Origin: Bacteroides sp.
Lineage (GTDB): Bacteria; Bacteroidota; Bacteroidia; Bacteroidales; Muribaculaceae
DNA length: 64,000 nt
Direction: 5' to 3'
Assembly (NCBI GenBank): GCA_014802325.1
Contig: JAAVCK010000010.1
Coordinates: 1 to 64,000 of the forward strand
Position numbers and translations under genes: made by a program. The notes under the pieces are model-generated. The model had not been told where the DNA came from. It ran no database searches and saw nothing but the letters and a program-made list of their open reading frames with translations. Shown one piece after another: positions 43,779-47,993 of the stretch (position 1 is its first letter; each line of letters opens with the position of its first letter).

Positions 43779-43971
43779 TTACACATTAATTATAAAGTGG
43801 AATCGATTTCAGCCCACAAAGGTAGGAGAAATTTTTAAAACAAAACGCCCCCGCAGTGAAAAAAGTTGTAAATCTGCATTATTCGCACCATTTGCTGTAA
43901 TCTGCCCCACTTGCCGAGGGCTATCAGGTCACAGGATTCGCACCCTGCCATATCAGTTTACGAAAAAAGGA

Positions 43972-44084
43972 TGTAAAAATAAGCCACAATTTTCACGCGA
44001 TTTCGCCTTATTTTGACATTTTTGTAAAAATAAGCATATTTCACATATACTTATTTTGACATTTTTGTTGTAATAAGCATATTT
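43972..44084. repeat. Left ~110-bp palindrome-rich direct repeat flanking DUF4143 ATPase
   Basis: gtaaaaataagccacaattttcacgcgatttcgccttattttgacatttttgtaaaaataagcat...; nearly same at 45541. Confidence 0.88.
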
Positions 44085-44090
44085 TTGATG

Positions 44091-44098
44091 TATATTTG
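44091..44098 (+). promoter_or_regulatory. -7 promoter motif TATATTTG
   Basis: TAnnTTTG match 28 bp before ATG of ATPase. Confidence 0.6.
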
Positions 44099-44125
44099 CG
44101 CTTAAAATATACAAACGCTCAATTC

Positions 44126-45550
44126 ATGGTAAATTTCCCCGAAGAACAGATATTGAAACGAATGGTGCTCGATAACCCCTGGTGGAGCAATGGCACAATC
44201 TTCAACGATTTTGATTCTATGAAGCCGCGACTGTTTCTGCGTCCTTTTGTGGAGCTGGTAACAACCTTACCTAGGGGCAGAAGTGTAATCCTACTCGGTC
44301 CCCGACGCGTGGGGAAGACCGTGATGATGTTCCATACTATCAAGAATCTGCTACAGTCAGGCGTGGATCCACGCAGAATATTGTATCTGACTATAGATGC
44401 TCCGCTCTACAGCGGGCTGTCGCTTGATGAGATGCTTCAGTATCTTATGAAAGCATCGAAGTCGGAAGCGACCGATGATCTCTTTTATGTGTTCTTTGAT
44501 GAAATTCAATATCTGAAAGATTGGGAGGTGCACCTGAAAGTATTGTGTGATACTTATCGTAATATCAGATTTGTTGCGTCCGGTTCAGCAGCTGCAGCAT
44601 TGAAAATGAAGTCGGTGGAAAGTGGTGCAGGTAGATTCACTCACTTTTCGCTACCACCGCTTTTATTCTGTGAATACCTCGCTATGGTGGGAGACGATTC
44701 GATAGTAGTGCCGGCCAATGTGGACTGGTTTGGCGACAGGGTGCGCGGATATGACGTAATGGATATGGCAAAGCTGAATGACCGGTTTATTGATTACATT
44801 AATTTCGGCGGATATCCTGAAGTGGTATCAAGCATGCAGCTGCGTAAAAACCCCGGACGGTATATAAAGGAAGACATTGTCGACAAGGTACTTATGAAAG
44901 ATCTTCCGGGATTATATGGCGTGAATGATACGAGAGACCTCTACCGACTGTTTGTTCATATAGTTTTCCGTTCGGGTGAAGAATTCTCATTTGAAGATCT
45001 GGCTAAGGAATCTGGTATAAAAAAAGAGATCATAAAGAAATATGTTGATTATCTCGAGTCAGCATTTCTTATCAAAGTGCTTCATAAGATTGACGAGAAC
45101 GCGCGCAGATTCCAGCGTGTCACTACATTTAAGATTTACATAACCAATCCGTCGATTTTCGCGGCAGTATTCTCTCCACTTGCACAGACTGACGCAGCCT
45201 TCAATCACCTTGTGGAAACAGCTGTATTCTGCCAACTTGCGTGGGATATACATGAGCTGTATTATGCCAACTGGAAAAAGGGTCGCACTCATGGAGAGGT
45301 GGATCTGGTGAGACTTGATATTCTTTCGCAGAAGCCTGACCGTATCGTTGAGATAAAGTGGAGTGACCGCTATTATGAGCATCCAGCCGAATTGAAATCG
45401 CTGCTTACTTTTATGGAAACCAATCATCTGAAGCAGGCTGTCGTTACATCAGTGTCTAATACCGGAGTGAAAAATATGGAATGTGGACAGCTGCACTTCG
45501 TACCTACTGCACTCTATACTTATGTGAAAGGAATGGACTGTGTAAAATAA
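44126..45550 (+). CDS. AAA ATPase, DUF4143 family with PD-(D/E)XK-like C-terminus
   Basis: LLGPRRVGKTVMMF Walker A, YVFFDEIQYLKDW Walker B, GEVDLV...RIVEIKW C-terminal motif; ATG at 44126. Confidence 0.9.
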   Translation: MVNFPEEQILKRMVLDNPWWSNGTIFNDFDSMKPRLFLRPFVELVTTLPRGRSVILLGPRRVGKTVMMFHTIKNLLQSGVDPRRILYLTIDAPLYSGLSLDEMLQYLMKASKSEATDDLFYVFFDEIQYLKDWEVHLKVLCDTYRNIRFVASGSAAAALKMKSVESGAGRFTHFSLPPLLFCEYLAMVGDDSIVVPANVDWFGDRVRGYDVMDMAKLNDRFIDYINFGGYPEVVSSMQLRKNPGRYIKEDIVDKVLMKDLPGLYGVNDTRDLYRLFVHIVFRSGEEFSFEDLAKESGIKKEIIKKYVDYLESAFLIKVLHKIDENARRFQRVTTFKIYITNPSIFAAVFSPLAQTDAAFNHLVETAVFCQLAWDIHELYYANWKKGRTHGEVDLVRLDILSQKPDRIVEIKWSDRYYEHPAELKSLLTFMETNHLKQAVVTSVSNTGVKNMECGQLHFVPTALYTYVKGMDCVK

Positions 45551-45653
45551 GCCCCAATTTTTCACGCGATTTCGCCTTATTTTGACATTTTTGTAAAAAT
45601 AAGCATGTCTGACATGTGCTTATTTTGACATTTTTGTAAAAATAAGCATATTT
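45541..45653. repeat. Right ~110-bp palindrome-rich direct repeat flanking DUF4143 ATPase
   Basis: gtaaaataagccccaatttttcacgcgatttcgccttattttgacatttttgtaaaaataagcat...; includes the ATPase stop codon. Confidence 0.88.
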
Positions 45654-45730
45654 CATGGATGAAAACATGCTTATTTTGCATCTGTACGTGTACCCGGTCA
45701 CGATCGCTACATATGCGGCTGGAGCGATAG

Positions 45731-45738
45731 TAATTTTG
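45731..45738 (+). promoter_or_regulatory. -7 promoter motif TAATTTTG upstream of capsid cassette
   Basis: TAnnTTTG match 28 bp before ATG. Confidence 0.6.
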
Positions 45739-45765: not shown

Positions 45766-45984
45766 ATGACTGACACTGTAGAAACACAGGCCACTCCCGT
45801 CGATGACGTGACCACCCCCACCCCTGCCGAATCTCCTCCGCAGACCGACAATCCCGCACCTCTACTGGGCACATTTGAACTCCTGCGCACCCCCGGCGCT
45901 GCCGACGATCCCGTCACATCGCCCGACGATGATGTGACTGCCTTTGTGCTCTCGCGCACCCGCCGCAGCGTGTGGGACCTTTGA
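45766..45984 (+). CDS. Small Pro/Thr/Asp-rich protein (72 aa), unknown
   Basis: Low-complexity acidic N-terminus, then LLGTFELLRTPGAADD...FVLSRTRRSVWDL; promoter upstream. Confidence 0.6.
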   Translation: MTDTVETQATPVDDVTTPTPAESPPQTDNPAPLLGTFELLRTPGAADDPVTSPDDDVTAFVLSRTRRSVWDL

Positions 45985-46151
45985 TGATTCATAATTCACG
46001 ATTCATGATTCACGATTTTTCTGTTTAAGATTCGTGATTGATATGAGATTAAGTAATCATGAATCATGAATTGTAAATCATGAATTAAAAAGGTGAATTA
46101 TGAATTATGAATCAGACGGAATTATGAATTTTAAATCTTAAATCGAAAAAG
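45985..46151. repeat. AT-rich ATTCATGATT/AATCATGAAT imperfect repeat array
   Basis: Same repeat style as 16107-16296; both end just before an ATG (aaatcgtaaaaagATG / aaatcgaaaaagATG). Confidence 0.75.
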
Positions 46152-47348
46152 ATGGCTTTTACTTCAGAAACACTCACCACTCAACTCGCCGGGCAGCTTT
46201 CGCCCGAACTGCTTGAAGACAGCGTAGAGTCGCGTATCGTCAAGATACGCCCGGCTGCAACTCCTCTCGATCAGATAACCCGTTGCATAGGCTCACGCCG
46301 CTGCGACTCAATGAAAGTATCGTACTACTCCGTCGATCTCAAACCCGGTTCAGCCACCGTGGCGGCTGCCGTGGCCGACGGCTTCTCTCCCCTCGACGAC
46401 ATAGAGATAACCGTCGACACCGAGGGTGTATTCGCTCCCACCGACACCATAATGCTCCCGGGGGTGAAACTCACCGCTGCCGGACGAGCCGAAGCTCTGC
46501 GCGGATATGTAAAGGAGGTCAACGGCACGAAACTCACCGTGCGTCTCACCGACATTCCCGGTGCCGAGAGCGAATTTCCGGCTATAAAGAAGGGCGAGAC
46601 CATAGTGAGGATGGGACGTGCGGCCTCCGAGCTCGACGTCATGACCGGCCTCTACAACTCGCTACCCGTCAAGGACTTCAATTACTGTCAGATATTCAAG
46701 ACCCAGATAGAATCCTCGGCCATGCACAATCTGGCCCGCAAGGAAGTGGGGTGGGGATTTCACGATCAGGAGGAAGTGGCTATAATGGACATGCGTCTCG
46801 GCATGGAAAAGTCGTTTCTCTTCGGTCTGCGCGAACAGTTTGACGACCTCGACGACAACCGCGAGGTGCTCCTCACCGGCGGCATATGGCATCAGGCCGG
46901 GCGTGACTATACGTTTGGCGGAAAAGTCAACACCACAAGTGTAGCCGCCCTGATGCGCAGCGCCTTCACTCTCAGCGGCGGATCTCGCGCCAAGGTGATG
47001 ATAGCCGGTTCGGGACTGATAGAGCGATTCTCGGCTCTCGACTATACACGCACCGTGCAGTCGACGGGCAAAAACGTCCACTGGGGCATTGACTTCGACA
47101 CCGTCGTGTCTAAATTCGGCACTCTCCACGTGATCCATTCCGAGATCTTCGACCTCTGCGGCCATGAGGACGATGCAATAGTGATAGACCCCGAATACGT
47201 GACCAAATACACCCACATACCTTTCAACGCCCAGAAGTTGCACCTCAAGCAGGCCGGTCTACGCAATACCGACGCTGTGGTGATGACCGAGGCCTCGTGT
47301 GTGGTGCTCCGCTACCCCGATGCCCACGTACGCGTGACATTTGCCTGA
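46152..47348 (+). CDS. SU10/HK97-like major capsid protein family (DUF5309-like), orphan
   Basis: NYCQIFKTQIESSAMHNLARKEVGWGFHDQEEVAIMDMRLGMEKSFLFG...LTGGIW; C-terminal FGTLHVIHSEIFD...; matches remembered SU10 MCP pattern. Confidence 0.65.
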   Translation: MAFTSETLTTQLAGQLSPELLEDSVESRIVKIRPAATPLDQITRCIGSRRCDSMKVSYYSVDLKPGSATVAAAVADGFSPLDDIEITVDTEGVFAPTDTIMLPGVKLTAAGRAEALRGYVKEVNGTKLTVRLTDIPGAESEFPAIKKGETIVRMGRAASELDVMTGLYNSLPVKDFNYCQIFKTQIESSAMHNLARKEVGWGFHDQEEVAIMDMRLGMEKSFLFGLREQFDDLDDNREVLLTGGIWHQAGRDYTFGGKVNTTSVAALMRSAFTLSGGSRAKVMIAGSGLIERFSALDYTRTVQSTGKNVHWGIDFDTVVSKFGTLHVIHSEIFDLCGHEDDAIVIDPEYVTKYTHIPFNAQKLHLKQAGLRNTDAVVMTEASCVVLRYPDAHVRVTFA

Positions 47349-47438
47349 CGTCTCTGCCGCTTTCCACCCTACGCCTCCCGCAACCATTCGGCTGCGGGAG
47401 GCGTTATAGTATGTAGAAAAAACTAACACCCTACTACA

Positions 47439-47993
47439 ATGGACAGCAAAGAACTTGTAAAGAAATTTGAAGAAAAAACCGGAGAGGATCTGCGCTCGTT
47501 TCTGCAGAAGAAAGAAGCACTCGACGCCCACGTGCCCGAATGTCCCGACGTGGAAGAGCGTTGGGGCGAGATAGCACGCGCATATATGCCCGACGGCGCA
47601 CGCGAGTTTGCACAATATCCCGTGGTGTCGCTCGGATGGATGATGCTCATTGGTATGACTATGGCTTATTACTGGGATACCGACTGGGAGCGATATTCCA
47701 AAGAAAAAGACCTGTATGAGAAGATTCGTGACATGCGCGGATATGACAATATGGACGAGGCCGTGGTACAAGACATTCTCGGCTATCGCGACGAAGCCGC
47801 CGAAAAGATCACCGAACTGGTGGCCGAATGTGCGTCGCGCGTCTACTCTCTTCTCAACCATGAGCACGTAGAGCCCGGCACTGAAGCGGCTCTGGGCTGC
47901 TACGTGGCCGCTCTACATCAACTCTATCTGGCCGGTATGGCCATGGAGCTCAATGCCCTCGGCTATCACATGACTCCGCTCAACAATGCCTGA
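47439..47993 (+). CDS. All-helical hypothetical protein (184 aa) downstream of capsid-like gene
   Basis: Complete ORF MDSKELVKKFEEKTGEDLRSF...; same strand, GC-matched. Confidence 0.7.
   Translation: MDSKELVKKFEEKTGEDLRSFLQKKEALDAHVPECPDVEERWGEIARAYMPDGAREFAQYPVVSLGWMMLIGMTMAYYWDTDWERYSKEKDLYEKIRDMRGYDNMDEAVVQDILGYRDEAAEKITELVAECASRVYSLLNHEHVEPGTEAALGCYVAALHQLYLAGMAMELNALGYHMTPLNNA

Follow-up and report, generated by a model that had tools for sequence, protein, structure and literature searches.

The window, that is, the whole stretch of 64,000 nucleotides of a Muribaculaceae genome that was analysed here, carries three consecutive open reading frames for proteins of 72, 398 and 184 amino acids, all of them present as an earlier note on this DNA had described them (Table 1). 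The 398-aa product is a true HK97-fold major capsid protein (MCP) of the SU10/DUF5309 type, as that note had recognised. In profile searches it exceeded the curated score of Pfam SU10_MCP (PF17236; 4e-45, 155 bits, cut-off 24.1) and matched PHROG 26635 at 8e-72, and the capsid of phage VP1 was found as a remote sequence match (8.6e-10). When its AlphaFold model (mean pLDDT 82) was compared by Foldseek with known structures, phage capsids came out on top. The best PDB matches were Vibrio phage VP1 (E=1e-24), phicrAss001 and SU10; HK97 stood further down and family 2 encapsulins lower in the list. The capsids of SU10 and VP1 thus share both the Pfam family (SU10) and the HK97 fold with the window protein, but they are parts of viruses, whereas the window capsid is a stable chromosomal gene. 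A hydrophobic, membrane-anchor-like N-terminus is seen on phage capsids and on some cassette capsids (L051, L049, L065, L032); the window protein has none.

Table 1. Features of the capsid locus and the unlinked portal gene (window positions unless a contig is named).
Feature	Position	Strand	Evidence or remark
Shared promoter element, GATCGC-N23-TAATTTTG, one mismatch to TATCGC-N23-TAAYTTTG	45702..45738	+	27 nt upstream of first gene; whole-genome pattern search
72-aa Pro/Thr/Asp-rich protein, putative scaffold remnant	45766..45984	+	Position and C-terminal motif as in longer scaffold-like proteins
RRSVWDL C-terminal tail, putative shell-binding peptide	45961..45981	+	ORFs preceding the capsid gene mostly terminate in S-x-W-D or a close variant
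MCP, SU10_MCP/DUF5309 family, HK97 fold, 398 aa	46152..47348	+	Profile, remote match, fold, family-wide conservation, dN/dS
184-aa helical protein, judged outside the system	47439..47993	+	Homologues away from the capsid gene
Portal, window's genome	C10:121739-123028		Homologue search with the portal; ~75 kb from the capsid gene

The genes adjacent to the capsid gene vary among genomes, and in the window's genus the capsid and the tail-bearing protein stood out as the one pair of neighbours that is conserved. Of 61 genomes, 15 have homologues of the 184-aa protein that are encoded away from the capsid gene, and only in the window's genome do the two genes adjoin. The synteny of the 72-398-184 aa trio therefore does not hold, what had been taken for a three-gene cassette becomes two genes and a neighbour, and the 184-aa protein was ruled out as cargo.

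The ORF just upstream of the capsid ends in S-[VIA]-W-D at 74 of 107 loci under a strict rule, and about 28 further loci carry close variants of this tail as judged by eye (SVWE, SAWN, SAWP, SVWS). Phage examples of the tail are RRKSVWDD and GKSVWD. In other genera the scaffold-like protein has 130-175 aa and a G..RGRN..I segment, and it matches the C-terminal part of a ~270-aa phage protein that has the same position and the same ending. We read the 72-aa protein as a scaffold that was probably stripped down to its putative shell-binding tail. The earlier idea that this small protein works with the shell finds support, in the role of a scaffold remnant and not in that of a cargo.

The spacer between the 72-aa and capsid genes (45985-46151) is made of short repeats (ATTCATGATTCACGATT), and the corresponding spacers in relatives (upstream regions of L072 and L248) hold telomere-like TTAGGTTTTAGGG repeats. 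Upstream in the window, an AAA_14/DUF4143 ATPase gene (44096-45550) has related repeats on both flanks (43953-44114 and 45504-45701), with the reverse-strand reading KISxCxxCLFLQKCQNKAKSRE at both ends. This gene and its flanking repeats may form a mobile or recombining unit.

Among 101 relatives searched, almost all genomes of the family have a full-length capsid homologue, as do 3 from the rest of the order. With profile searches of genomes at least 90% complete, the MCP was detected in 174 of 225 Muribaculaceae genomes and 25 of 26 genera, full length and usually as a single copy; many of the capsid-less genomes belong to one genus (g30), which mostly lacks this capsid type. Carriers include Duncaniella MAGs (90-91% identity), Paramuribaculum, Heminiphilus and Muribaculaceae isolates, and the cassette is present in the genomes of two strains available from culture collections, Paramuribaculum intestinale DSM 100749 and Heminiphilus faecis AM35. 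The truncation of the capsid gene in G012 and G024 falls on an assembly gap or on the end of a contig. Only in G026 (L216, contig C33) does a capsid gene in mid-contig look truly truncated, possibly a recent loss.

The capsid and rpoB trees have 12 of 25 bipartitions in common (random maximum 3) and no strongly supported conflict, and the Mantel correlation of 0.67 was reached by none of 5000 permutations. The dN/dS of the window gene against two relatives of 90-91% identity is 0.05-0.06, and that between these two is 0.03, indicating strong purifying selection. The near-universal distribution, the agreement with rpoB and these dN/dS values show that the window capsid gene is a host gene under strong selection and not a remnant. 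The domestication of the shell gene that the earlier note had entertained is thereby borne out. In favour of its other proposal, a decaying prophage or satellite, taken here as remnants kept by chance or repeatedly re-acquired, the phage lineage from which all genes derive lives on in prophages of the family and as Bacteroides phages. This proposal is, however, highly improbable and already contradicted by dN/dS and distribution: an integrase or attachment sites and a patchy distribution would mark such an element, yet the copies are intact, near-universal, usually single and in agreement with rpoB, their promoter covaries (see below), and no integrase was recognised in the gene lists beside the contiguous cluster or near the dispersed units.

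The capsid gene had been called an orphan, which holds within the window; elsewhere in the same genome lie a portal, a terminase, an adaptor and a virion structural gene. Our first reading from the neighbourhoods, a lone domesticated shell, was dropped when unlinked portal and terminase genes were found in nearly every genome. The cassette of other genera continues with an adaptor-like protein, a ~480-aa portal (PHROG 156 at 1.5e-42; Pfam P22_portal) and two small genes. Homologues of this portal, which is shorter than the phage portal, occur in 36 of 37 family genomes examined, including 26 of 27 from the window's genus, where they are unlinked to the capsid gene. Only 2 of 24 other-order genomes have one, and both also match the capsid and terminase profiles. 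The large terminase (TerL) was found in 211 of 225 family genomes (94%; genomes at least 90% complete), a count in which some matches are prophage copies and the larger g30 proteins may be a different version. Of 16 dispersed copies examined, 15 have kept both the ATPase and the nuclease motifs intact. In many genomes the terminase adjoins a 720-935-aa protein homologous to gp26 of Bacteroides phage BS-TP4 (PHROG 32516), and this gp26-like virion structural protein is near-universal in the family. Purifying selection acts on all units when the window's closest relatives are compared, with dN/dS of 0.03-0.06 for the MCP, 0.06-0.12 for the portal, 0.09 for TerL and 0.12-0.15 for the virion protein.

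Some genomes depart from this pattern. G003 and G031, which are 99% complete and keep the capsid, yielded neither a terminase nor a virion-protein gene, and in G002 only a terminase fragment was found. In G013 (L247, contig C7) the terminase gene is apparently frameshifted, possibly a recent loss. Most g30 genomes are without this capsid type and have larger terminase relatives (650-840 aa), which would be either common prophages or another version of the system.

Homologues of the portal, terminase, scaffold, capsid, adaptor and virion protein are found in the Bacteroides temperate phages BS-TP4, BKO1-TP3 and BF1-TP2 and in related prophages, whose capsids have 34-36% identity to the window protein. 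These phages differ in their size of 64-68 kb and in many further genes, including the 2645-aa gp14 of BS-TP4. A gp14-like large protein was rejected as a component of the present system, being absent throughout the Muribaculaceae except for a few genomes with phage-like copies. The 850-aa virion protein was considered as a tail nozzle, and we do not make this claim because its AlphaFold model, obtained from four sequences, has a mean pLDDT of 41 and is not interpretable. Among the system genes we identified neither a small terminase nor a receptor-binding fibre, nor any link to DNA uptake.

In the window's genome the system comprises the capsid operon and three further units, namely the adaptor-portal unit with two small head genes, TerL, and the virion structural protein. 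The neighbourhoods of dispersed units consist of cellular genes. In the genus of L049 and L109, all eight genes are contiguous over ~10.5 kb, with an RND efflux-pump gene and an acyltransferase-like gene beside the L049 cluster. No integrase was recognisable next to this contiguous cluster or near the dispersed units in the gene lists, which are not an exhaustive scan. Since the eight genes stand together in this genus, the system most likely descends from a head-and-packaging cluster of a phage, whose genes dispersed later.

The dispersed units have a promoter element in common. The -7 motif reported upstream of the first gene is indeed there (TAATTTTG at 45731-45738, 27 nt before the ATG). 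As a mark of a vegetative promoter of its own, however, TANNTTTG alone is common, with 46 matches in the window, and the special part is the linked upstream element. The combination TATCGC-N22/23-TAAYTTTG is common to the capsid operon, the partner units, a holin-like gene and an endolysin of phage type. Before the units of the window's genome and of its two closest relatives stand (T)ATCGC, exactly 23 bases and TAAYTTTG, and across the genus nearly every unit has the element with a spacing of 22 or 23 bases. A pattern search of the 2.34 Mb genome, on which the regulon counts rest, returned 10 sites with at most one mismatch against none in the reversed control. Four of the 10 belong to the capsid, portal, terminase and virion-protein units, and some sites before ordinary genes are probably due to chance. 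The motif was defined post hoc. The exact match before the holin-adaptor-portal operon and the sites of the G005 terminase and of the scaffold genes of two close relatives were not used in its definition, and they are therefore independent recoveries.

The element also changes in concert within genomes. Similarity between elements of one genome amounts to 10.5 of 16 positions, compared with a permuted mean of 8.8, and none of 2000 permutations reached this value. Lineage-specific changes are common to both units (16/16 positions in G013, 14/16 in G032, 13/16 in G002), and the TCGC core is present at 34 of 49 system sites as opposed to 4 of 142 other TAAYTTTG sites. Such covariation is characteristic of a regulon whose predicted DNA-binding regulator co-evolves with its sites.

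Several small proteins lie directly behind the element: L315, L318, L319 and L320 (G014), L321 (G001), and L322 and L323 (G009). Most of them have an R-S-A-K-A-R-like segment, four related copies occur in G014, and no significant Pfam match was obtained for any of these proteins; they are possible further members of the regulon. Exact matches of the element at G000:C10:202108-202144 and G005:C88:24889-24925 (L304, L305) stand 370-560 nt before a related small membrane protein of 88-96 aa.

A phage-type amidase (endolysin) carries the element 11-31 nt upstream in four genomes and matches a PHROG lysis family at 3e-57. The holin-like gene is the first of the portal operon in the window's genome, where its match to Pfam Phage_holin_4_1 (0.0023) is below the cut-off; a homologue behind the element in another genome passes (2.5e-5). 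The amidase and the holin-like gene are putative lysis genes that would be under common control.

These results bear on the encapsulin-like compartment, with the 72-aa or 184-aa protein as cargo or adaptor, that the earlier note had suggested as one of two outcomes. In another form of this proposal, the capsid protein would build a shell and the S-V-W-D tail would bring in the cargo. As in encapsulins, there is a cell-encoded HK97-fold shell and a short C-terminal peptide on a partner, the two genes are the only conserved pair in the window's genus, and family 2 encapsulins do appear, if lower, in the Foldseek list. We nevertheless consider this explanation very unlikely. An encapsulin shell would work without portal or terminase, whereas both co-occur with this capsid and share its promoter, together with the adaptor, the virion protein, the amidase and the holin-like gene; no encapsulin system is known to have a promoter in common with portal and terminase. 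Neither is there a conserved enzyme cargo gene with a targeting peptide beside the capsid: the neighbours vary, the 184-aa gene is unlinked in other genomes, and the tail of the 72-aa protein is scaffold-like.

A domesticated particle for protein delivery or killing, such as a bacteriocin-like agent or an anti-phage decoy, seems unlikely as well, although less so. Its heads would be empty or filled with protein and released by lysis, DNA packaging having been lost or become irrelevant. The few genomes that keep capsid and portal with an absent or broken terminase agree with this, as does the shell gene being the best conserved part close to the window. On the other hand, TerL is present in 94% of the family genomes with intact motifs and has a dN/dS of 0.09 among the window's closest relatives, and this prevalence and selection are hard to explain if packaging were unused.

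Head, packaging and lysis genes are all present, and one could also think of a new class of functional phage with a genome split over the chromosome and still spreading. This is the least probable of the alternatives. No replication, integration or immunity genes were seen with the units, and IMG/VR contains no complete virus with this capsid version, which occurs there only on short fragments, the other viruses having capsids of 29-43% identity. Four short IMG/VR contigs catalogued as viral (L152-L155) carry a cassette-type capsid and partner genes; they look like chromosomal pieces of the system and not like viruses.

It is reasonable to think that the capsid belongs to a packaging particle of phage origin, whose genes, lysis genes included, are dispersed but regulated together. 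This system, which resembles a gene-transfer agent (GTA), is quite probable, and we prefer it over an encapsulin or a decaying prophage. The fit to GTAs comes from a gene set that reaches from capsid to lysis and is dispersed, vertically inherited and under a common promoter, with no replication or integration genes recognised beside it in the gene lists. MCP and TerL prevalence and the agreement with rpoB indicate that these phage-derived structural genes are fixed in the lineage. We write "GTA-like", and place good but incomplete confidence in the full GTA reading, because of the missing or apparently broken terminases of G003, G031, G002 and G013 and the short portal, and because the search for a fibre, a small terminase and a regulator gave no candidate.

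In the working cycle of such a GTA, a regulator would turn on all units at once, probably in part of the cells. The S-V-W-D tail of the scaffold remnant would hold capsid subunits while assembly proceeds around the portal, and the terminase would fill the head with DNA. This DNA would have to be largely host chromosome, given the dispersal of the genes and the lack of accompanying replication or integration genes. Holin and amidase would then lyse the cell and free short-tailed particles, which would deliver the DNA to relatives. Co-induced units and host DNA of one size in particles are the predictions of the GTA reading.

Known GTAs, such as RcGTA of Rhodobacter, BaGTA of Bartonella, the Caulobacter GTA and FpGTA of Faecalibacterium, likewise have phage-derived head and packaging genes that are chromosomally fixed at several loci. 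FpGTA is a gut GTA with two operons ~125 kb apart, and in Bacteroides lateral transduction by phage has been reported (PMC12946183). The system described here differs in its phylum, in its SU10/crAss-like capsid and P22-type portal ancestor, and in having at least 4 units under one common promoter element. We found no GTA reported from Bacteroidota, Bacteroidetes, Bacteroides or Muribaculaceae in the open-access literature, where subscription papers may be missed, and no description of this capsid system in PubMed Central. We lean toward an ancient, family-wide GTA of podovirus-like descent, whose genes are scattered yet tied by a co-evolving promoter; it would be the first in Bacteroidota and would preserve a record of stepwise dispersal. 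If this is true, the dispersal series would run from one 10.5-kb cluster to at least 4 regulon members.

Muribaculaceae are dominant bacteria of the mouse gut, and conjugation and ordinary phages are usually seen as the routes of gene exchange among gut Bacteroidota. A packaging system run by the host and conserved throughout this family would add a further one. It would also explain why a virus-shell gene sits alone in Muribaculaceae chromosomes, and the passage from contiguous cluster through split cassettes to dispersed regulon would offer a natural series in which to study how a phage is turned into cell machinery.
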